From the NCBI RefSeq assembly GCF_030053775.1, contig NZ_CP125669.1:186001-250000 (forward strand): a DNA stretch of 64,000 nt, given 5' to 3'. Within the stretch, counting starts at the first letter, position 1. Each line of letters begins with the position of its first letter. This stretch comes from Acinetobacter corruptisaponis. Lineage in GTDB: Bacteria; Pseudomonadota; Gammaproteobacteria; Pseudomonadales; Moraxellaceae. The notes below the pieces were generated by a model that was not told the DNA's origin, made no database searches, and was given only the letters and a program-made list of their open reading frames with translations. Below are positions 2-19,572 of the stretch, piece by piece. The translations under genes and the position numbers were made by a program.

Positions 2-1507
2 ATGCCGATTATTCTGGGGCCAGATGGCCCAAGTTTAGGCGGTTTTGTCTGTCCTGCGGTGGTGATTCATTCTGAATTATGGAAACTCGGACAACTCAAG
101 GCAGGTGACAAGGTTCAGTTTATTCCTGTTAGTTATCAGCAGGCACAGCTACTGGAACAACGTTATCAGGCTGCATTGCAGAGTGAAAACACTATTCAGG
201 TTGATTTCTCGGTCAACATTCAAGCTGAACCCATCACCCTGAAAAATGCCGTATTGGCAATCTTGCAACAAGGTGCAGATAAACCAAGAGTGACTTATCG
301 TCCAGCAGGTAACCAATATCTGTTGGTGGAATATGGTGATCTGGTACTGGATTTAAACCTGCGTTTCCGTATTCATGCCTTGATGCAATGGGTCAAATCG
401 CAAAATATTCAGGGTATTATTGACCTGACACCAGGTATCCGTTCGCTCCAGATTCATTTTGATTCGACTGTTTTAGATCAACTGGATTTATTGCGTTTGT
501 TGCAGGTGGCAGAAACCGAACTGCCTGATATTGAAAATATGCAGGTGCCATCCCGAACTGTGTATTTACCCCTCGCTTGGGAAGATTCGCAAACCCAATT
601 GGCAACCGAAAAATACACCCAACTGGTACGACCTGATGCGCCGTGGTGTCCAGACAATATTGAATTTATTCGTCGTATCAATGGCTTGTCATCCAAGCAG
701 GCGGTTAAGGATATTGTTTATAGTACTTCTTATCTAGTGATGGGTTTGGGTGATGTCTATCTTGGAGCACCTGTTGCCACACCGTTAGACCCACGACATC
801 GTTTAGTCACGACCAAATATAACCCTGCACGGACATGGACACCTGAAAATGCTGTTGGTATCGGTGGTGCCTATATGTGTGTTTATGGTATGGAGGGACC
901 AGGGGGGTATCAGTTTGTCGGGCGGACGACCCAAGTATGGAGTCGTTATCGCCAAAACCCGAATTTTGAGCAGCATAAGCCGTGGTTACTTCGATTCTTT
1001 GACCAGATCAAGTTTTATGAAGTGTCTGAATCGGAATTGATGGTAATGCGTGAGGATTTCAAGGCAGGACGCTTACAACTTAGAATTGAAGAGGGTGTGC
1101 TCAATCTCAAGGAATACAATGCTTTTCTTCAGGAGAATCAGGACAGCATTCAGGCATTTAAACAGGTACAGCAAAGCAATTTTGAAGCAGAACGGCAAAG
1201 ATGGCATGAAGCAGGCTTGGCGGAGTACGTTTCTGAAGATCTGGATGTGATTGTTGATGATTCAGAAATTAACATACCGAATGGGGGCATGGTGGTGGAG
1301 TCGCACATGCCAGGTTCGGTCTGGAAAATTGAGTGTGCTGTGGGTGATGTCATTGAAGAGGGACAAACTTTGGCGGTGATTGAAGCCATGAAAATTGAAA
1401 TCCCAATTGTCGCACCAGCAAAAATGCAGGTCGATCAGATTCTGATTGATAAAGCGCAAACGGTTAAAACAGGACAGGTATTATTTACTTTAGCTCCGAT
1501 TGTATAA
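2..1507 (+). CDS. Urea/guanidine carboxylase, C-terminal part (partial)
   Basis: C-terminal 501 residues of a biotin-dependent carboxylase of the urea carboxylase family; the 5' part lies outside the window, so the first Met is only the edge. In order it shows the end of the KipA-like carboxyltransferase half (about 1-45), the KipI-like half (about 80-345, with GLGDVYLGAP, LDPRHR and GIGGAYMC), and a C-terminal biotinyl domain with the biotin-accepting lysine in EAMKIE (about 460). These enzymes carboxylate urea, or guanidine in many bacteria, for later hydrolysis to ammonia. The guanidine riboswitch about 4.6 kb downstream makes guanidine the better guess. Family confident, substrate inferred. 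Confidence 0.9.
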   Translation: MPIILGPDGPSLGGFVCPAVVIHSELWKLGQLKAGDKVQFIPVSYQQAQLLEQRYQAALQSENTIQVDFSVNIQAEPITLKNAVLAILQQGADKPRVTYRPAGNQYLLVEYGDLVLDLNLRFRIHALMQWVKSQNIQGIIDLTPGIRSLQIHFDSTVLDQLDLLRLLQVAETELPDIENMQVPSRTVYLPLAWEDSQTQLATEKYTQLVRPDAPWCPDNIEFIRRINGLSSKQAVKDIVYSTSYLVMGLGDVYLGAPVATPLDPRHRLVTTKYNPARTWTPENAVGIGGAYMCVYGMEGPGGYQFVGRTTQVWSRYRQNPNFEQHKPWLLRFFDQIKFYEVSESELMVMREDFKAGRLQLRIEEGVLNLKEYNAFLQENQDSIQAFKQVQQSNFEAERQRWHEAGLAEYVSEDLDVIVDDSEINIPNGGMVVESHMPGSVWKIECAVGDVIEEGQTLAVIEAMKIEIPIVAPAKMQVDQILIDKAQTVKTGQVLFTLAPIV

Positions 1508-2196: not shown

Positions 2197-2206
2197 TAGG
2201 TTGAGC

Positions 2207-2644
2207 ATGAACAGTAAACCCAAGCTTTCACGTATCAGCATCACTGTTCCTGAAAATACAGTAGAAGCTTTAGACCAGAAGATCGTAGAAGAACACTATG
2301 AAAGCCGTTCACAGGCGATTGTAGACATGATCAATCATCACTTAATTGATCAGCATAGCTCAGATAATTCAGTGATGGTCGGGACACTGACATTGTTATA
2401 CCAGCGTCGCACGGCAAATATCCGTCTACAGATTGGTGATCTGCAACATCAATATCTGGAACAGGTGATTAGCTCGCTGAGTGTACAGCTTGATGCGGAA
2501 AAGATTCTGGAAGTGATGTTATTGCAAGGCAAAAGCAATGATCTAAAACAGATCAGCCAGCAATTTATTGCACTGAAAGGTGTCATCAAGGGGCATCTGG
2601 AACTGATGGATGCTGTGATGCCACCGCTCCAGCAGAATGATTAG
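2207..2644 (+). CDS. NikR-like ribbon-helix-helix regulator lacking nickel ligands
   Basis: 145 residues: an N-terminal ribbon-helix-helix DNA-binding domain (about 7-48) and a C-terminal ACT-like NikR domain (about 55-135). Hand alignment to E. coli NikR keeps the first nickel ligand (His81, equal to H76) but puts Ser92, Gln94 and Ile100 at H87, H89 and C95. The high-affinity nickel site is therefore missing and the regulator probably senses something else. ATG 2207 is preferred over TTG 2201 because AGG lies 6 bases upstream. It sits between a sigma-54 promoter and a binding-protein gene in a carboxylase locus, so it probably controls this nitrogen-uptake system. Confidence 0.75.
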   Translation: MNSKPKLSRISITVPENTVEALDQKIVEEHYESRSQAIVDMINHHLIDQHSSDNSVMVGTLTLLYQRRTANIRLQIGDLQHQYLEQVISSLSVQLDAEKILEVMLLQGKSNDLKQISQQFIALKGVIKGHLELMDAVMPPLQQND

Positions 2645-2741
2645 GGAGAAATACACACAGCAAGATGAAATACGCAATTTTAACGTTCAGGTTCTAAATC
2701 ATCATCCATATCTGGATTGCATTCTATTCGGGGGTTCTGTA

Positions 2742-3773
2742 ATGAAACATGCAATGACATCCTTATCTCTTTCTGTTCTATTGAGTTTTGCTGTAGCGGG
2801 TTGCGATAATTCAGCCAAAGTACCGACGGCCAGCCAGAAAGAAGAATCAAAAAATACTGCGACAACCACACCCATCACGATCGGTTATAGTGACTGGCCT
2901 GGTTTTGTCGCTTGGCAAGTGGCGATTGAAAAAGGTTGGCTCAAAGAGGCAGGGCTTAATGTTGAATTTAAATGGTTTGACTATTCGGCTTCACTGAATG
3001 CCTTTGCTGCCAATCAGCTCGATGCGGTACTGACCACCAATGGCGACAACCTTGTCACAGCATCAGGTGGCACCAAGGGTATGATGATTATGGTCACCGA
3101 TTATTCCGCAGGTAATGACGTGATTATTGCCAAGCCAGGCATCAACTCAGTGACGGATTTAAAAGGTAAATCGGTGGCAACCGAAAAAGGTCTGGTGGAT
3201 CATTTGCTTCTTTCGACTGCTTTGACCGATGCCAACATTCCATTAACAGACATTAAACTGGTCAATTCTGTCACCAATGAATTACCACAGGTGTTTGCCA
3301 GCCCAGAAGTATCTGCAATCGCTGTGTGGCAACCTGTGGCAAATCAAGCCTTAAAAGCAGTTGCAGGCTCAAAAATTATCTATAGTTCCAAAGATAAGCC
3401 AGGTCTGATCTATGATGGTGTATCTGTGAATATGAGCCACTTATCCGCGCATAAAGAGGAATGGAAAAAGCTGATTCAGGTCTGGGATAAAACGGTCAAA
3501 TATATTAATGATCCTGCCACACATGCCGATGCGGTCAAGATCATGTCCAATCGGGTTGGGGTCGATCCTGCCCAGTATGAACAATTTGTGGGTGGCACTC
3601 ATTTACTTGATCTGGCGGGCAATAAAAAAGCCTTTGTAAAAAATGATAGTTTTGATTCGGTCTATGGGTCTTCTTATCATGTAAATCAGTTTAATGTAAA
3701 CAATGGCATCTATAAAACCGCCGTTGATGTGGATGGTCTGATTTATCCTGATTTGGTGAATGAATTGAAATAA
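2742..3773 (+). CDS. ABC transporter substrate-binding lipoprotein (SsuA/TauA/urea-type)
   Basis: 343 residues from ATG 2742, which has a GGGGG-rich ribosome site. A frame open from 2637 is rejected because the signal peptide begins at 2742. Residues 1-20 form a lipoprotein signal with lipobox AVAG and lipidation at Cys21. The mature part is an NMT1/SsuA-type solute-binding fold (ITIGYSDWPGF, DAVLTT, DLKGKSVATEKG). Relatives bind nitrate, sulfonates, taurine or, near urea carboxylases, a urea-like solute. The matching permease and ATPase are in the convergent operon. Ligand inferred to be guanidine or a related compound. Confidence 0.85.
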   Translation: MKHAMTSLSLSVLLSFAVAGCDNSAKVPTASQKEESKNTATTTPITIGYSDWPGFVAWQVAIEKGWLKEAGLNVEFKWFDYSASLNAFAANQLDAVLTTNGDNLVTASGGTKGMMIMVTDYSAGNDVIIAKPGINSVTDLKGKSVATEKGLVDHLLLSTALTDANIPLTDIKLVNSVTNELPQVFASPEVSAIAVWQPVANQALKAVAGSKIIYSSKDKPGLIYDGVSVNMSHLSAHKEEWKKLIQVWDKTVKYINDPATHADAVKIMSNRVGVDPAQYEQFVGGTHLLDLAGNKKAFVKNDSFDSVYGSSYHVNQFNVNNGIYKTAVDVDGLIYPDLVNELK

Positions 3774-3840: not shown

Positions 3841-4170
3841 TTAAAGATGAGTACTTTTTGAAAAGACATTGATCACGATAATGCCTGCAATCATCATACT
3901 TAAACCAATAAATGCCGCCAGATCCAGAGACTGCTTGAAGAAAAACCAGCCAATACTGGAAATAAGAATAATCCCAGCACCCGACCAGATTGCATAGGCA
4001 ATACCGACTGGAATAAATTTTAGGGTTAAGGATAAGAAATACAAGGAAATCGCATAGCCCACCGCTGTGATGAGTGAGGGCAGAGGAACGCTAAATCCAT
4101 TTGAGGCTTTGAGTGCAGAAGTGGCGATCACTTCCGCAATAATTGCAATCATCAAATATAAATAGGGCAA
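3841..4170 (-). CDS. SMR-family efflux transporter under guanidine-riboswitch control
   Basis: 109 residues with four transmembrane helices. The essential membrane Glu is at position 13 (IIAEVIATS). It has the SMR signature GIAYAIWSGAGI and LDL before helix 4, and is the usual length. By sequence it looks closer to EmrE/Qac-type pumps than to Gdx/SugE. As last gene of an operon led by a guanidine-II riboswitch it may export guanidinium or a related cation in exchange for protons. It is 11 bases downstream of the preceding gene. Family certain, substrate inferred. Confidence 0.9.
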   Translation of the reverse strand: MPYLYLMIAIIAEVIATSALKASNGFSVPLPSLITAVGYAISLYFLSLTLKFIPVGIAYAIWSGAGIILISSIGWFFFKQSLDLAAFIGLSMMIAGIIVINVFSKSTHL

Positions 4171-4181
4171 ATCAGGCTCCT

Positions 4182-5069
4182 TTATTCAACCACTTGAGCA
4201 TTTTTAAGCAAATGATCCTGTTCCTGCTGTAACCAGTGATGGCTTGCATCAGAGGTGTTGGATTCACGTACAAACTGGAACTCAGGCTGGTACAGGTCAA
4301 GCTGAAAATAACAGCGGTAATCTTCCCCATGAATCTGGCGAATTTGTGTAATAATGCCCTGATCATTCAATTCAAAATCATTCAATTTTATAGATTCACC
4401 GACATGCTGGCTTTGCGTACTATATTGAATTTTCTGACTATTTAATGCCACAGAAACTTCATAGCTTTCAATTTCTGCTTCATTTATGACATTTTGTGCC
4501 AGTGCCTGATCAAGTCTGAAAAAGTTTGAAAGTATGTCTTGAATCTGTGGCAGTCGGGATTGTGCATAGGCAATATGTTCTCCTGCCATAATCAATCCAC
4601 CATCCATTGCACACACTTCACCATTACCCAGATGTTGTACCTGATACAAGCGTAAACCGAGCAATGGCCCTGTATGCGACAATTGTCGCCAGTCTTCTAC
4701 ATAGGCATTGGAGGGTGAAAACTCCAATAGGCAATTACCTACCGCATGTAATGTGGCAGGTTCTGGCCACTGGATCCGTGGTTGGTAGCTTTGCTGAACC
4801 TCCCATGACAGCAATTGCTGTGCATGATCCCAAACCGTATCGCCAATCCAGCCTTGTCTTTCAGTGATGGGAGTAAAGCGTGCATCTGACAAGCGTAGAT
4901 CAAGCGTAAATGTTCGGGACTGAAACCAGTAAACAATGGTGTGTTCGTCGGTCAGTCCATTATAAAAACTGATACTTTTACGCCTAAAACTACCGAGTAA
5001 ATAATGGGGTAAACTGACTTGCTGTAGATCAGTGGGACTTAACTGCTGCAATAATTCATTTAAATCCAT
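4182..5069 (-). CDS. Unknown protein in guanidine-riboswitch operon
   Basis: 295 residues, no signal peptide or membrane segment. The start overlaps the oxygenase stop (TAATG), so the two are translationally coupled. The protein is rich in Trp, Tyr and Gln with alternating beta-like stretches (SISFYN, TIVYWFQSRTFTLDLRL) and two similar-sized halves, compatible with a two-barrel lipocalin-like fold. That is only an impression. No catalytic motif is recognisable. Its place between oxygenase and exporter suggests it handles the same guanidino compound or the product. Confidence 0.75.
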   Translation of the reverse strand: MDLNELLQQLSPTDLQQVSLPHYLLGSFRRKSISFYNGLTDEHTIVYWFQSRTFTLDLRLSDARFTPITERQGWIGDTVWDHAQQLLSWEVQQSYQPRIQWPEPATLHAVGNCLLEFSPSNAYVEDWRQLSHTGPLLGLRLYQVQHLGNGEVCAMDGGLIMAGEHIAYAQSRLPQIQDILSNFFRLDQALAQNVINEAEIESYEVSVALNSQKIQYSTQSQHVGESIKLNDFELNDQGIITQIRQIHGEDYRCYFQLDLYQPEFQFVRESNTSDASHHWLQQEQDHLLKNAQVVE

Positions 5070-6070
5070 TATTTTTCTCCAGTTTCAGTCAAACCAAAAG
5101 AAGAGAGTGGCATGGCATTATTCAGTTGAATTTCGTTACGTGCGATACGTTGTTTTAAATAGCTAAAAGTCTGTGCAGTCTGATTAAATAAATGTTCACC
5201 GCCTTTTAGCGGTTGATATTTTGGCACTTCATTAGGCATGACAGGCTGGATCAGATAATCATAGTCACAGGAGAAAAATAAGGGGAATGAATAACGTTCT
5301 TCCTTGACCCGTTTGACCCGATGTTTGGTGGCGATATAATGCCCATTGGATAAAATTTCCATCATGTCACCGATATTCAGGATCATGGTATTTTCAACCA
5401 GAGGAATATCCGTCCATTCACCTTGTTTGTTGAGTACCTGCAAGCCAGGTGCAGTCGGAAATAACAGGGTAAAACATTCATAATCGGTATGTGCGCCAAT
5501 GCCCATGGCATCTTCAGCATCAGGATTATAAGGATAATGAATCAGCCTGAGCTGACTGGGCGCATGTTGCAAATGTGCATCAAAAAATTGTTCTTCCAGC
5601 CCCAGAGCCAACGCAAAGGCATGAAAAAGTTGATGTCCGACATCCTTGATATGCTGATAATAGCTCAGGACATTTTGTTTAAATTCTGCATCATCGGGCC
5701 ACTGCGTTGGGCCGACCAAGGGGCGACGATTTTCGCTTGCCAGATAATCATAATTGACATCGTAGGTTTCTTTTAAATCGTAAGTATTGCTTTTAAAACG
5801 TTCCTCACCAATCGGCACATAGCCACTATGATTCTCAGACAGGCCAATATAGTTTTGCATTTTTTTTGCTTCATCCTGAGCGAAATAGCGTTGTGCAGTT
5901 TGCACCAGTTGCTGAAAGAGCGCAGGTTGTAACTGATCACCGCGAATATATAAAAAACCGACTTCACGGCAGGCCTGATCCAGTTCCTGTGCGACCTGTA
6001 ATCGTTCCTCAAGCTGTGGACTGGTCAATTTTGAAATATCGACCAAGGGTAAAACATAATCCTGTTTCAT
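5069..6070 (-). CDS. 2-oxoglutarate/Fe(II)-dependent oxygenase (IPNS-like)
   Basis: 333 residues of the isopenicillin N synthase-like dioxygenase family: N-terminal DIOX_N-type domain (about 7-125) and C-terminal double-stranded beta-helix. The iron triad is visible: His194 and Asp196 in GAHTDYE and His250 in TKHRVKR. The 2-oxoglutarate-binding Arg259-x-Ser261 is in ERYSFP. It is the first gene after the guanidine-II riboswitch, with the ATG 16 bases past the second hairpin. Relatives hydroxylate or cleave small molecules, some acting on arginine with release of guanidine. Oxidation of a substituted guanidine is inference. Confidence 0.88.
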   Translation of the reverse strand: MKQDYVLPLVDISKLTSPQLEERLQVAQELDQACREVGFLYIRGDQLQPALFQQLVQTAQRYFAQDEAKKMQNYIGLSENHSGYVPIGEERFKSNTYDLKETYDVNYDYLASENRRPLVGPTQWPDDAEFKQNVLSYYQHIKDVGHQLFHAFALALGLEEQFFDAHLQHAPSQLRLIHYPYNPDAEDAMGIGAHTDYECFTLLFPTAPGLQVLNKQGEWTDIPLVENTMILNIGDMMEILSNGHYIATKHRVKRVKEERYSFPLFFSCDYDYLIQPVMPNEVPKYQPLKGGEHLFNQTAQTFSYLKQRIARNEIQLNNAMPLSSFGLTETGEK

Positions 6071-6085
6071 GCGTCACACCATTTA

Positions 6086-6131
6086 GCTGGTCGTCCAGCA
6101 CATAAATAAAACGCTTTGGGTCGTCCCAAAG
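6086..6131 (-). ncRNA. Guanidine-II (mini-ykkC) riboswitch
   Basis: On the minus strand: a 7-bp hairpin CTTTGGG-ACGA-CCCAAAG (6114-6131), a 14-base linker, and a 5-bp hairpin GCTGG-ACGA-CCAGC (6086-6099). Two hairpins with identical ACGR loops and a short linker are the diagnostic architecture of this class, whose hairpins bind guanidinium as a pair. The oxygenase start follows after 15 bases, so control is probably by ribosome-site access. A TATAAC hexamer (6132-6137) just before the first hairpin could be a -10 box; otherwise the RNA is part of the longer operon transcript. Confidence 0.9.
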
Positions 6132-6145
6132 GTTATACAAAATCT

Positions 6146-7021
6146 TTATTCAGCATCGACCTGCGTCATACGGGGAATTTTTGGCAAATGGGTCAAGGCA
6201 GGATCAAGCTCATCTTCCTGAGCATGCACCAGTTGATCCACCTTGTTTCTCAGGCGTTGAAACTCAGGCGTATTCATCAGTTCCGTGCCGCGCGGACGGG
6301 GCAAATCCACTTCAATAATTTCCTTGATTTCGCCAGGATTGGCCTTGAGCGCCACAATACGATCAGCCAATAGAATCGCTTCATCCATGTCATGGGTGAC
6401 AAAAATAATGGTGATATCAATGTTTTGCCATAAATCCATCAAATGTCGCTGCATCTTCTGGCGGGTATGCGGGTCAAGCGCACCAAACGGTTCATCCATC
6501 AATAAAATCTTGGGTTCATTAACCAAGGCACGGGCAATTGCAACCCGTTGTTTCATCCCGCCTGACAGTTGGTGCGGATACTGGTTTTCGTATTTTTCCA
6601 GCCCAATGATATTGATCCATTCCCGAGCCATTTCTTCGGCACGAGTGGTACTGATGCCTTTCATCAATGGCCCAAACATGACATTTTGCTTGACCGTTTT
6701 CCACGGAAACAGGGTATAGCCCTGAAACACCATGCCACGTTCTGGGCTGGTGCCTGTGATGGCTTGACCATCCACGAGAATCTCACCACTATGATAAGGG
6801 TCTAAACCAGCCACCACACGGCTCAAGGTGGATTTACCACAACCTGACGGGCCAATCACACAGACAAACTCACGTTTATGAATTTTTAAATCCAGTTGAT
6901 TGAGAATGGTGCGTTGCTCTTTGCCATGATAAAAGACCTGTGTCAGTTTTTTTGCTTCCAGAATCACAGGACGAGCATAAATTTGTTCAAAATAAACATT
7001 CGCATCAAATTGAGTTTCCAT
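6146..7021 (-). CDS. ABC transporter ATP-binding protein (SsuB/TauB-type)
   Basis: 291 residues. Walker A GPSGCGKST (57-65), Q-loop Gln100, signature LSGGMKQ (152-158), Walker B ILLMDE (172-177) and switch His210. ATG 7021 is chosen because it overlaps the permease stop as TAATG and has GGAG just upstream; an ATG seven codons earlier lies inside the permease gene. With the permease and the lipoprotein at 2742 it forms a nitrate/sulfonate/urea-type importer. The riboswitch begins only 15 bases after its stop. Confidence 0.93.
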   Translation of the reverse strand: METQFDANVYFEQIYARPVILEAKKLTQVFYHGKEQRTILNQLDLKIHKREFVCVIGPSGCGKSTLSRVVAGLDPYHSGEILVDGQAITGTSPERGMVFQGYTLFPWKTVKQNVMFGPLMKGISTTRAEEMAREWINIIGLEKYENQYPHQLSGGMKQRVAIARALVNEPKILLMDEPFGALDPHTRQKMQRHLMDLWQNIDITIIFVTHDMDEAILLADRIVALKANPGEIKEIIEVDLPRPRGTELMNTPEFQRLRNKVDQLVHAQEDELDPALTHLPKIPRMTQVDAE

Positions 7022-7959
7022 TATTTTGCTCCTGCTTTCCATTTAAATAGACGTTCGCCTAATTTCATCAACATCACATCGGTGACCAAACCAATCACAC
7101 CAATAATTAAGATAGCGGCATAGACATTCTCAAAATTCTGGTAACGGGCTTGTTGAGTGATAAACCATGTAATCCCCGAAGTGGCCCCGATCAATTCTGA
7201 TACGATTAAATAAGTCCACGCCCAGCCCAATAACACGCGTAAATCACGGTAAATATCAGGCAGTGCCGCAGGAATCACCACATGGAACAGACTTTTGGCT
7301 TTATTGGTTCCCAGCGTATAACCCGCTTCAATCAAACCTCGATCCACCATGCGGGTGGTATTGGCAATAATCAGGATTTGCTGAAATAAAGTGCCGATCA
7401 CGATAATGGCAATTTTAGGTGCATCATTAATGCCCAAAATGGCAACTGCCAATGCGCCAAATGCAGGCGCAGGTAGATAACGGAAAAACTCGACAAAGGG
7501 TTCATTCAATCGGGAAATCGTGGCAGAAAACCCAGACAAAATACCTAGTGGAATACCAATCAATGAGGAAATAAAGAAAGCGATAAAGACAATCTTGATA
7601 CTATGCCACAGGCTTTGATGTAGCCACGGTGCATCAGGCTGTTGTGGTGGTGTGGTAAAGGAAGTAACCAGCGCTTTGGCTACCTCATGGGGCGCAGGCA
7701 GATAAATCGGATTGACCAAAATCCCATTAGGTGGTGTTTTGCCTGCATCGACTGCCTGCTGCGCTTCACGATAAAAGGCATTTTTTTCAATGCGTGTGCC
7801 GACCTGTAAATAAGACACACTGCCAGAATCGGTAATTTGTACCTGTGGATGCCAGATAAAGGGCAGGTAACTGACGCAACTCCAAATCAGGATGGGAATC
7901 AGGAAAGACCCCAAACTTAACAAAAGTTTTTTCTTTTTTGACAATACTGAATCATGCAT
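7021..7959 (-). CDS. ABC transporter permease (SsuC/TauC-type)
   Basis: 312 residues: an N-terminal membrane anchor (about 9-32), a periplasmic stretch of about 80 residues, then a BPD_transp_1 domain with about five helices and the EAA-like loop EAGYTLGTNKAKSLFHVVIP. First gene of the minus-strand operon, with a sigma-54 promoter 51 bases upstream. The start codon lies at the foot of a 6-bp hairpin (7958-7973, ATAGGT/ACCTAT) that also holds the only AGG near it, so initiation may be modulated. Solute inferred from context. Confidence 0.9.
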   Translation of the reverse strand: MHDSVLSKKKKLLLSLGSFLIPILIWSCVSYLPFIWHPQVQITDSGSVSYLQVGTRIEKNAFYREAQQAVDAGKTPPNGILVNPIYLPAPHEVAKALVTSFTTPPQQPDAPWLHQSLWHSIKIVFIAFFISSLIGIPLGILSGFSATISRLNEPFVEFFRYLPAPAFGALAVAILGINDAPKIAIIVIGTLFQQILIIANTTRMVDRGLIEAGYTLGTNKAKSLFHVVIPAALPDIYRDLRVLLGWAWTYLIVSELIGATSGITWFITQQARYQNFENVYAAILIIGVIGLVTDVMLMKLGERLFKWKAGAK

Positions 7960-19484: not shown

Positions 19485-19572
19485 GTCATAAGCTATCTAT
19501 GCGTTAGTGAACATTTCACGGTGGTACTGATCGATGCTCATTGATTTCTAAGCTACCTATGCGGTAGTAAAC
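19485..19572 (-). CRISPR. Orphan two-repeat type I-F CRISPR array
   Basis: Read on the minus strand: a 28-base repeat (19572-19545) beginning GTTTACTACCGCATAGGTAG and ending CTTAGAAA, a 32-base spacer (19544-19513), and a degenerate 28-base repeat (19512-19485) beginning GTTCACTAACGCATAGATAG and ending CTTATGAC. Repeat length, spacer length, CTACC/GGTAG hairpin and GAAA ending are those of type I-F. The decayed last repeat and the AT-rich leader-like sequence above 19573 fix the direction. No cas gene lies in the window. Confidence 0.8.

Follow-up and report, generated by a model that had tools for sequence, protein, structure and literature searches.

What does a guanidine riboswitch control when the genes behind it encode an Fe(II)/2-oxoglutarate oxygenase and a protein that belongs to no named family? 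Such a locus lies on the minus strand of a 64,000-nucleotide stretch of the Acinetobacter corruptisaponis genome (NZ_CP125669.1, positions 186,001 to 250,000; hereafter the window). An earlier note on this DNA had read positions 4182-6131 as a Guanidine-II riboswitch heading an operon of the oxygenase, the unnamed protein and an SMR pump, and its author knew of no described pathway of this kind. A two-step reaction that fits was in fact published in October 2025, as the demethylation of methylguanidine by MgdH and MgdL in the salt-loving Vreelandella boliviensis and also in other halophilic bacteria (Sinn et al. 2025, PMC12508155). With a probability of roughly 0.82, the locus is read here as a module for methylguanidine demethylation, joined to a cluster that assimilates nitrogen by way of guanidine carboxylase. 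The comparisons show homologous sequences, conserved residues, covarying RNA pairs, a kept order of genes and their co-occurrence; from these we infer substrate, reaction, ligand response, switching mode and physiological role.

The Guanidine-II leader

Both hairpins placed upstream of the oxygenase gene by the earlier note were read directly in the sequence. P1 (6114-6131) and P2 (6086-6099) lie on the minus strand, share the form GG-ACGA-CC and are joined by a linker of 14 nt; the distance from P2 to the ATG at 6070 was counted as 15 bases, where 16 had been given before. The RF01068 (Guanidine-II, mini-ykkC) model aligned end to end at 6086-6132(-), covering model positions 1-48 of 48 with 30.4 bits. 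This score lies below the curated cut-off of 32 bits, and the leader is absent from the gathering-threshold listing; the cut-off is a threshold of the model and not a structural feature, and the RNA was identified by its motif and by covariation. Two stem-loops with ACGR tetraloops and G-C closing pairs, which the available part of PMC5486947 gives as the feature of Guanidine-II RNAs, are both present.

A search for the paired motif GGACGRCC-N15-40-GGACGRCC gave a single hit in the window and none in 100 shuffled sequences. For comparison, 22 loci were collected, 21 from those of 96 related genomes that carry a homologue of the unnamed protein (the window genome included) and one from a plasmid of Acinetobacter sp. 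NCu2D-2. A comparative look for ACGA-hairpin leaders before oxygenase homologues, as the earlier note had suggested, found two GGACGRCC motifs upstream of the oxygenase gene in 22/22 loci. Covariation was assessed on 18 of the 22 leaders (17 distinct), with L029, L030, L040 and L041 omitted as copies or near-copies. Paired cells amounted to 96.1%, a value reached by 0/500 shuffles; four pairs were changed on both sides, a number reached by 15/500 shuffles, and 13 cells carried double changes. Three of the five measures were reached by 0/500 shuffles and the other two by 15/500 and 77/500, and the paired structure is backed by covariation across relatives. Motif and covariation mark the stretch 6086-6132(-) as a Guanidine-II riboswitch, which would be expected to bind guanidinium. 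A second Guanidine-II element of the genome was found at C1:3052456 (37.2 bits).

The riboswitch, said in the earlier note to head the operon, stands directly before the oxygenase gene but is probably internal to a longer transcript and not its start, because the gene for an ABC transporter ATPase ends at 6146, 14 bases before P1 begins, and the same layout is seen in 22/22 loci. In all of them, the point three bases before the first GGACGRCC falls 8-29 bases past the ATPase stop. In line with an internal riboswitch, a consensus scan found no minus-strand promoter-like site between 6132 and 7019, where promoters of other kinds are possible and such scans prove little.

Control of translation is the likely switching mode. 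For the RNA without ligand, folding predicts that GGTG at 6077-6080(-), the probable Shine-Dalgarno sequence of the oxygenase gene, is paired to the linker between P1 and P2 (P 0.83 in a single-sequence fold; 6/200 shuffled linkers as high). In the window leader, this modelled pairing would represent the closed form of a switch that ligand turns on. Translation control has been proposed for the Guanidine-II class (PMC12508155), as the available part of PMC5486947 also has it.

Oxygenase, lyase and carboxylase genes

The gene at 5069-6070(-) encodes an oxygenase with DIOX_N and 2OG-FeII_Oxy domains. The residues listed in the earlier note, H194, D196, H250, R259 and S261, were all recovered at those positions and are kept in 16 aligned rows, forming the HxD...H and RxS core. 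Compared with MgdH of the V. boliviensis mgd locus (L001), which was located by the published primer of PMC12508155, the protein shows 51% identity (172/334 columns). A tree of 36 rows, with long branches flagged and with no ethylene-forming enzyme or plant sequence among the rows, placed the 22 window-type oxygenases in one clade (100/99). A larger clade, also at 100/99, joins them to L001, L056, L057, L069 and L076. The window-type oxygenases thus group with the proven MgdH, apart from six other 2-oxoglutarate oxygenases and from L055, L078 and L079. Identity and tree position point to a methylguanidine hydroxylase, and the gene is called mgdH-like below.

The second gene, at 4182-5069(-), shares one base with the oxygenase gene (TAATG, base 5069), where its ATG overlaps the oxygenase stop codon; the earlier note had called it translationally coupled. 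Its product found no match in Pfam, NCBIfam or PDB sequence searches. Its kinship to MgdL was detected by profile-profile comparison: an alignment of 20 window-type proteins from 20 of the 22 loci (A2) matched an alignment of seven MgdL-type proteins (A4) at 96.9% (E 1.5e-10, 200 columns). When only the three closest MgdL rows were used, the match was 81.5% (E 1.1e-5, 94 columns), and against a single MgdL sequence the A2 profile gave a weak 5.5 bits. An intermediate protein of locus L055 links both lyase families, with 97.4% (E 1.4e-11) to A2 and E 9e-10 to MgdL. Homology to V. boliviensis MgdL is established by way of the profile-profile match and this intermediate.

At 16 of the 24 positions that do not vary in A4, the window protein has the same residue, W48, E116, Y123, E125 and W127 among them; one of the remaining eight is unaligned and seven differ. 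D49 and R51 of MgdL correspond to D57 and R59 of the window protein, a pair kept in all 20 A2 rows. Variants of MgdL at D49 and R51 released guanidine at the no-enzyme level (PMC12508155). The window protein has 295 residues and MgdL 250. Single-sequence AlphaFold2 models of the window protein and V. boliviensis MgdL reached a mean predicted local distance difference test score of 33.9 and 35.5, too low for use in judging the beta-barrel fold that goes with MgdL. As judged by homology and by the kept catalytic pair, the protein is a divergent MgdL. Its substrate may well have been kept too, which would make it an N-(hydroxymethyl)guanidine lyase.

Oxygenases of at least 65% identity were found in exactly the same 21/96 genomes as the lyase (E <=1e-30); other oxygenase matches in the 96-genome search were 27-45% identical, the one at 45% coming from genome G041. 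The order permease, ATPase, oxygenase, lyase is kept in 22/22 loci. In A. baumannii (L090, a record labelled plasmid yet 3.66 Mb long and without annotation there), the genes for the substrate-binding protein and the ATPase end 51 bases apart, and the stretch contains no oxygenase, lyase, SMR gene or GGACGRCC motif. Since riboswitch, mgdH, mgdL and SMR gene are absent together there, the block is regarded as a module. Oxygenase, lyase and riboswitch come and go together.

A carboxylase gene, gca, enters the window at positions 2-1507(+) with its 3' part only. Left of the window lie its 5' part, two cgdA/B-like genes and a Guanidine-I riboswitch, which precedes the carboxylase operon (L044:16347-16446, 83.8 bits). 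We take the D/N residue that decides the substrate of such carboxylases to be the position in I[D/N]FTGD. The neighbouring carboxylase has D (IDFTG), as in V. boliviensis Gca, and the second carboxylase of the genome (L089) has N (INFTGD). D is found in 18/18 visible loci; in L035, L038, L039 and L040 of the 22 the site falls outside the stretch. According to the available part of PMC12186494, guanidine carboxylases carry D instead of N at the substrate-deciding residue, and the neighbouring enzyme is of this guanidine type.

Genes for later steps are found elsewhere in the genome. A 608-residue frame at C1:334992-336818 shares 57% identity with the protein annotated as allophanate hydrolase in L023; the alignment extends 15 bases beyond the stop, and the flagged TAA is the gene's own end at 336818. 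A glutathione-dependent formaldehyde dehydrogenase is encoded at C1:333288-334391 (737 bits). With these two genes, the steps from methylguanidine to ammonia and the oxidation of formaldehyde are encoded. Both stand side by side with the N-type carboxylase gene at L089:5283-12440 (C1:333282-340439), about 83 kb past the window end, with the hydrolase gene in the middle of the three.

The SMR gene that the earlier note had counted within 4182-6131 is present, outside that interval, at 3841-4170(-), with a TTG start. It follows the lyase gene in 19/22 loci and was not found in L028, L029 and L030; in the gap after the L028 lyase, the only one of the three inspected, no SMR-like reading frame is listed. 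Its product scores 135 bits with the Qac-pB8 model and 58 with SugE, whereas the SMR protein behind the second Guanidine-II element gives 118 bits with SugE and 60 with the best Qac-named model. By these subtype scores, the window pump is of the Qac/EmrE kind and not of the guanidinium-exporter (Gdx/SugE) kind. As substrates of Gdx proteins, the available part of PMC9574504 reports guanidiniums that carry a single, hydrophobic substituent, a finding that does not bear on the Qac/EmrE subtype.

Pathway reading and its alternatives

As a mechanism, we propose that guanidine or methylguanidine, which is also bound by Guanidine-II RNAs, would close the P1-P2 kissing loops and so free the ribosome-binding site of the mgdH-like gene. 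With O2 and 2-oxoglutarate, the oxygenase would convert methylguanidine to N-(hydroxymethyl)guanidine. The divergent lyase would split this hemiaminal into guanidine and formaldehyde, with D57 and R59 in acid-base catalysis. The adjacent carboxylase would then carboxylate guanidine, whose further breakdown would yield ammonia, and formaldehyde would be handled by the glutathione-dependent dehydrogenase, whose gene lies in another part of the genome. The earlier proposal that the two enzymes act on a substituted guanidine thus survives as dealkylation, to which MgdH/MgdL homology, the shared 21/96 genomes and the adjacent guanidine carboxylase genes all point.

Several observations weigh against this reading. 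When the window protein is compared with MgdL directly, BLASTP gives no significant match (E 0.056), and the substrate of the lyase may therefore have shifted. The oxygenases of L069 (G041) and L076 (G240), 53% and 56% identical to V. boliviensis MgdH, lie within the larger MgdH clade (100/99), and both are without an adjacent lyase homologue or guanidine riboswitch. Identity of about 50% alone therefore does not fix the substrate, and on our analysis the guanidine context would supply the rest of the assignment. For the leader, a strict-filter RF01068 scan of the 96 genomes matched 12 of the 21 mgdH leaders, every one below 32 bits, and missed 9; the Rfam cut-off therefore misses this group of leaders. 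Pairing of the linker with the Shine-Dalgarno sequence at P >=0.5 is predicted in only 11/18 leaders and is thus not general. Beyond P1 and P2, RNAalifold gave no consensus pairs, so the support for this helix comes from folds of single sequences. A consensus scan reports P1 followed by CGTTTTATTT as terminator-like (one site, against a shuffle mean of 2.7), so termination control might operate in the leader.

A different substrate has to be considered in this light. The pair might dealkylate another or larger N-alkylguanidine, for example ethyl- or dimethylguanidine, with a lyase diverged to fit another hydroxyalkyl intermediate. Such a change would suit a lyase too divergent for BLAST beside an oxygenase that keeps 51% identity, the additional length of the lyase, and the presence of MgdL family members in other gene strings whose oxidative enzyme is of quite another kind. 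Nevertheless, two thirds of the invariant MgdL residues (16/24) are kept with the catalytic pair among them, and another alkylguanidine is considered rather unlikely. It is less likely still that the oxygenase makes guanidine from arginine or homoarginine in a guanidine-producing or detoxifying operon. Oxygenases of the ethylene-forming enzyme type and plant homoarginine-6-hydroxylases do release guanidine (PMC12508155), and the best solved relative of the window protein, 9ovh, is named an ethylene/succinate-forming enzyme (E 2.9e-47). Against this stand the 51% identity to a proven MgdH and the mgdL-like gene that accompanies it in all 21 genomes, on which an arginine hydroxylase of the ethylene-forming type was rejected. 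Moreover, of the compounds offered to V. boliviensis MgdH, methyl- and N,N-dimethylguanidine alone led to O2 uptake (PMC12508155).

The module could also serve detoxification and export in place of nitrogen supply, methylguanidine being cleaved and the remainder removed by the SMR pump. The SMR gene after mgdL in 19/22 loci would agree with such a role; the pump, however, is Qac/EmrE-like and not of the Gdx type, its gene was not found in 3/22 loci, and the module has genes for an importer and a guanidine carboxylase as its neighbours. This role appears fairly improbable, and a plain efflux operon was rejected on the subtype of the pump and the three loci where its gene was not found. A coincidental pairing of two hairpins, with no riboswitch in the leader at all, is a reading that draws on the sub-threshold Rfam score. 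It was rejected and is next to negligible in view of the motif before the same gene in 22/22 loci, the covariation, the 0/100 shuffles, and the absence of the leader together with the gene in A. baumannii. Methylguanidine demethylation for nitrogen assimilation is thus retained as the preferred reading.

Neighbouring genes, related strings and known systems

Upstream of the riboswitch, the ABC transporter ATPase (6146-7042(-)) has a nitrate-type protein as its best NCBIfam match, below the cut-off, and family models identify the permease (7021-7959(-)). The NMT1-like ABC substrate-binding protein is encoded convergently at 2637-3773(+), with a true start possibly later than listed; its best NCBIfam match, again below the cut-off, is a putative urea ABC transporter binding protein. 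This gene was seen in 21/22 loci, the contig ending in L035. A NikR-like regulator, also recognized by family models, is encoded at 2201-2644(+). In the window the NikR-like and substrate-binding protein genes abut (2201-3773) and the allophanate hydrolase gene lies elsewhere; in L023, L069 and L090 that gene stands between the two.

The NCu2D-2 copy of the module lies on a 310 kb plasmid typed as mobilizable (L023:12001-16096). Its oxygenase falls within the clade of the Acinetobacter genomes in the 36-row tree, and its SMR gene is labelled predicted qacG (43% identity). Elsewhere in the window, a single repeat of the CRISPR-DR4 type (41.7 bits) was found at 19545-19572(-), and no CRISPR array was found within 1.8 kb of it.

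Further relatives of the enzymes occur in other arrangements. At L069:6398-9786 (G041), the MgdH-like gene is followed by genes for a zinc alcohol dehydrogenase and a 299-residue protein weakly similar to beta-propellers, with no lyase gene. Its neighbours are those of the window group: NikR-like regulator, allophanate hydrolase (73% to L023), binding protein, ATPase, permease and SMR. No guanidine riboswitch was found in the L069 stretch, and no carboxylase gene falls within it. At L055:5760-10731, genome G458 carries a second oxygenase-lyase pair, next to genes for a PhyH-type oxygenase and an ABC transporter. The 16 kb stretch contains neither a guanidine riboswitch nor a carboxylase; the first copy of this genome is 84% identical to V. 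boliviensis MgdH.

Two MgdL homologues (L060/G335 and L061/G202; L060:4354-7160 and L061:6796-14642) belong to gene strings that follow a Guanidine-I riboswitch and also encode a membrane protein resembling fatty-acid desaturases and a protein of the metallo-beta-lactamase fold. A search for the desaturase-like protein gave 10/369 genomes of the class. The flanks covered were at most 1.5 kb for the nine loci other than L061, and the following counts are lower bounds. Guanidine riboswitches at the Rfam cut-off, either Guanidine-I or Guanidine-II, lie near the desaturase-like gene in 6/10 (L061, L092, L093, L094, which is the L060 locus, L095 and L099); none was found in L096, L097, L098 and L100 at this cut-off and within these flanks. 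A binding-protein gene stands between riboswitch and desaturase-like gene in L061 and L092. The metallo-beta-lactamase gene adjoins the desaturase-like gene in 4/10 (L093, L094, L096, L097) and lies five genes further in L061. An MgdL homologue shares the string in 2/10 (L061, L094), and G307 has one on another contig. The L061 string also holds creatininase-family and isochorismatase-family genes.

These strings are a candidate second route for alkylguanidines. A broader proposal, which we hold as tentative, is that MgdL-type proteins may split N-(hydroxyalkyl)guanidines in general and serve more than one unrelated hydroxylase under guanidine riboswitches (MgdH; the desaturase-like and metallo-beta-lactamase-fold proteins), with the zinc alcohol dehydrogenase and beta-propeller-like protein perhaps replacing the lyase in L069/G041. 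If this were so, alkylguanidine catabolism would be much wider than the one published pathway. In the part of the listed matches that was available, the guanidine-riboswitch literature mentioned no desaturase other than the arginine desaturase NapI. Among those listed, an old metagenome survey was the sole one to count a fatty acid desaturase, as far as the available part of PMC2211319 shows.

A literature search combining riboswitch, methylguanidine and Acinetobacter found nothing, and works on guanidine riboswitches in Acinetobacter included none on a methylguanidine module, judged by titles and abstract starts. Among the matches listed, PMC12508155 was the sole work on the topic to name mgdH or mgdL. 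The pathway itself is already published; what is new is its occurrence in Acinetobacter, the divergent lyase, a Guanidine-II element directly before mgdH, and lyase homologues in desaturase-like guanidine-riboswitch operons. The Acinetobacter oxygenase linked to a riboswitch and the protein without a family name are thereby explained. The position of Guanidine-II directly before mgdH fits the reported binding of methylguanidine by this class, and the divergent lyase widens the MgdL family to further guanidine-riboswitch gene strings with unassigned oxidative enzymes.

Like other members of the RF01068 class, the window leader has two ACGR-loop hairpins closed by G-C pairs, a short linker and a place near a start codon; it differs in its A/T-rich outer P1 pairs, its score under the cut-off and its setting in a string of ABC transporter and mgdH genes. 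The oxygenase shares its 2-oxoglutarate oxygenase superfamily and guanidino substrates with ethylene-forming enzyme and the plant homoarginine-6-hydroxylases (neither is in the tree), yet it has a lyase gene as partner and is much closer to MgdH. With the Gdx (SugE) exporters under Guanidine-II, the window pump has the SMR family and an upstream guanidine riboswitch in common, whereas its best scores are to Qac/EmrE models and the SugE-type gene of the genome has its own Guanidine-II at C1:3052456. The closest likeness is to V. boliviensis, where a 2-oxoglutarate oxygenase gene is likewise followed by a lyase gene with the catalytic D/R pair, and where a guanidine carboxylase cluster, an ABC importer, a Guanidine-I and an internal Guanidine-II riboswitch recur. 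In V. boliviensis, Guanidine-II precedes gca, and mgdH and mgdL lie between gca and atzF in one operon. In the window, by contrast, mgdH has Guanidine-II directly before it and belongs to a convergent unit of its own, downstream of the ABC permease and ATPase genes; direct BLAST misses the lyase, and an SMR gene follows. It is well supported by these sequence comparisons that the locus belongs to the known MgdH/MgdL system and acts by dealkylation, although its lyase is divergent and its genes are ordered differently; this extends the pathway from V. boliviensis and other halophilic bacteria to Acinetobacter.

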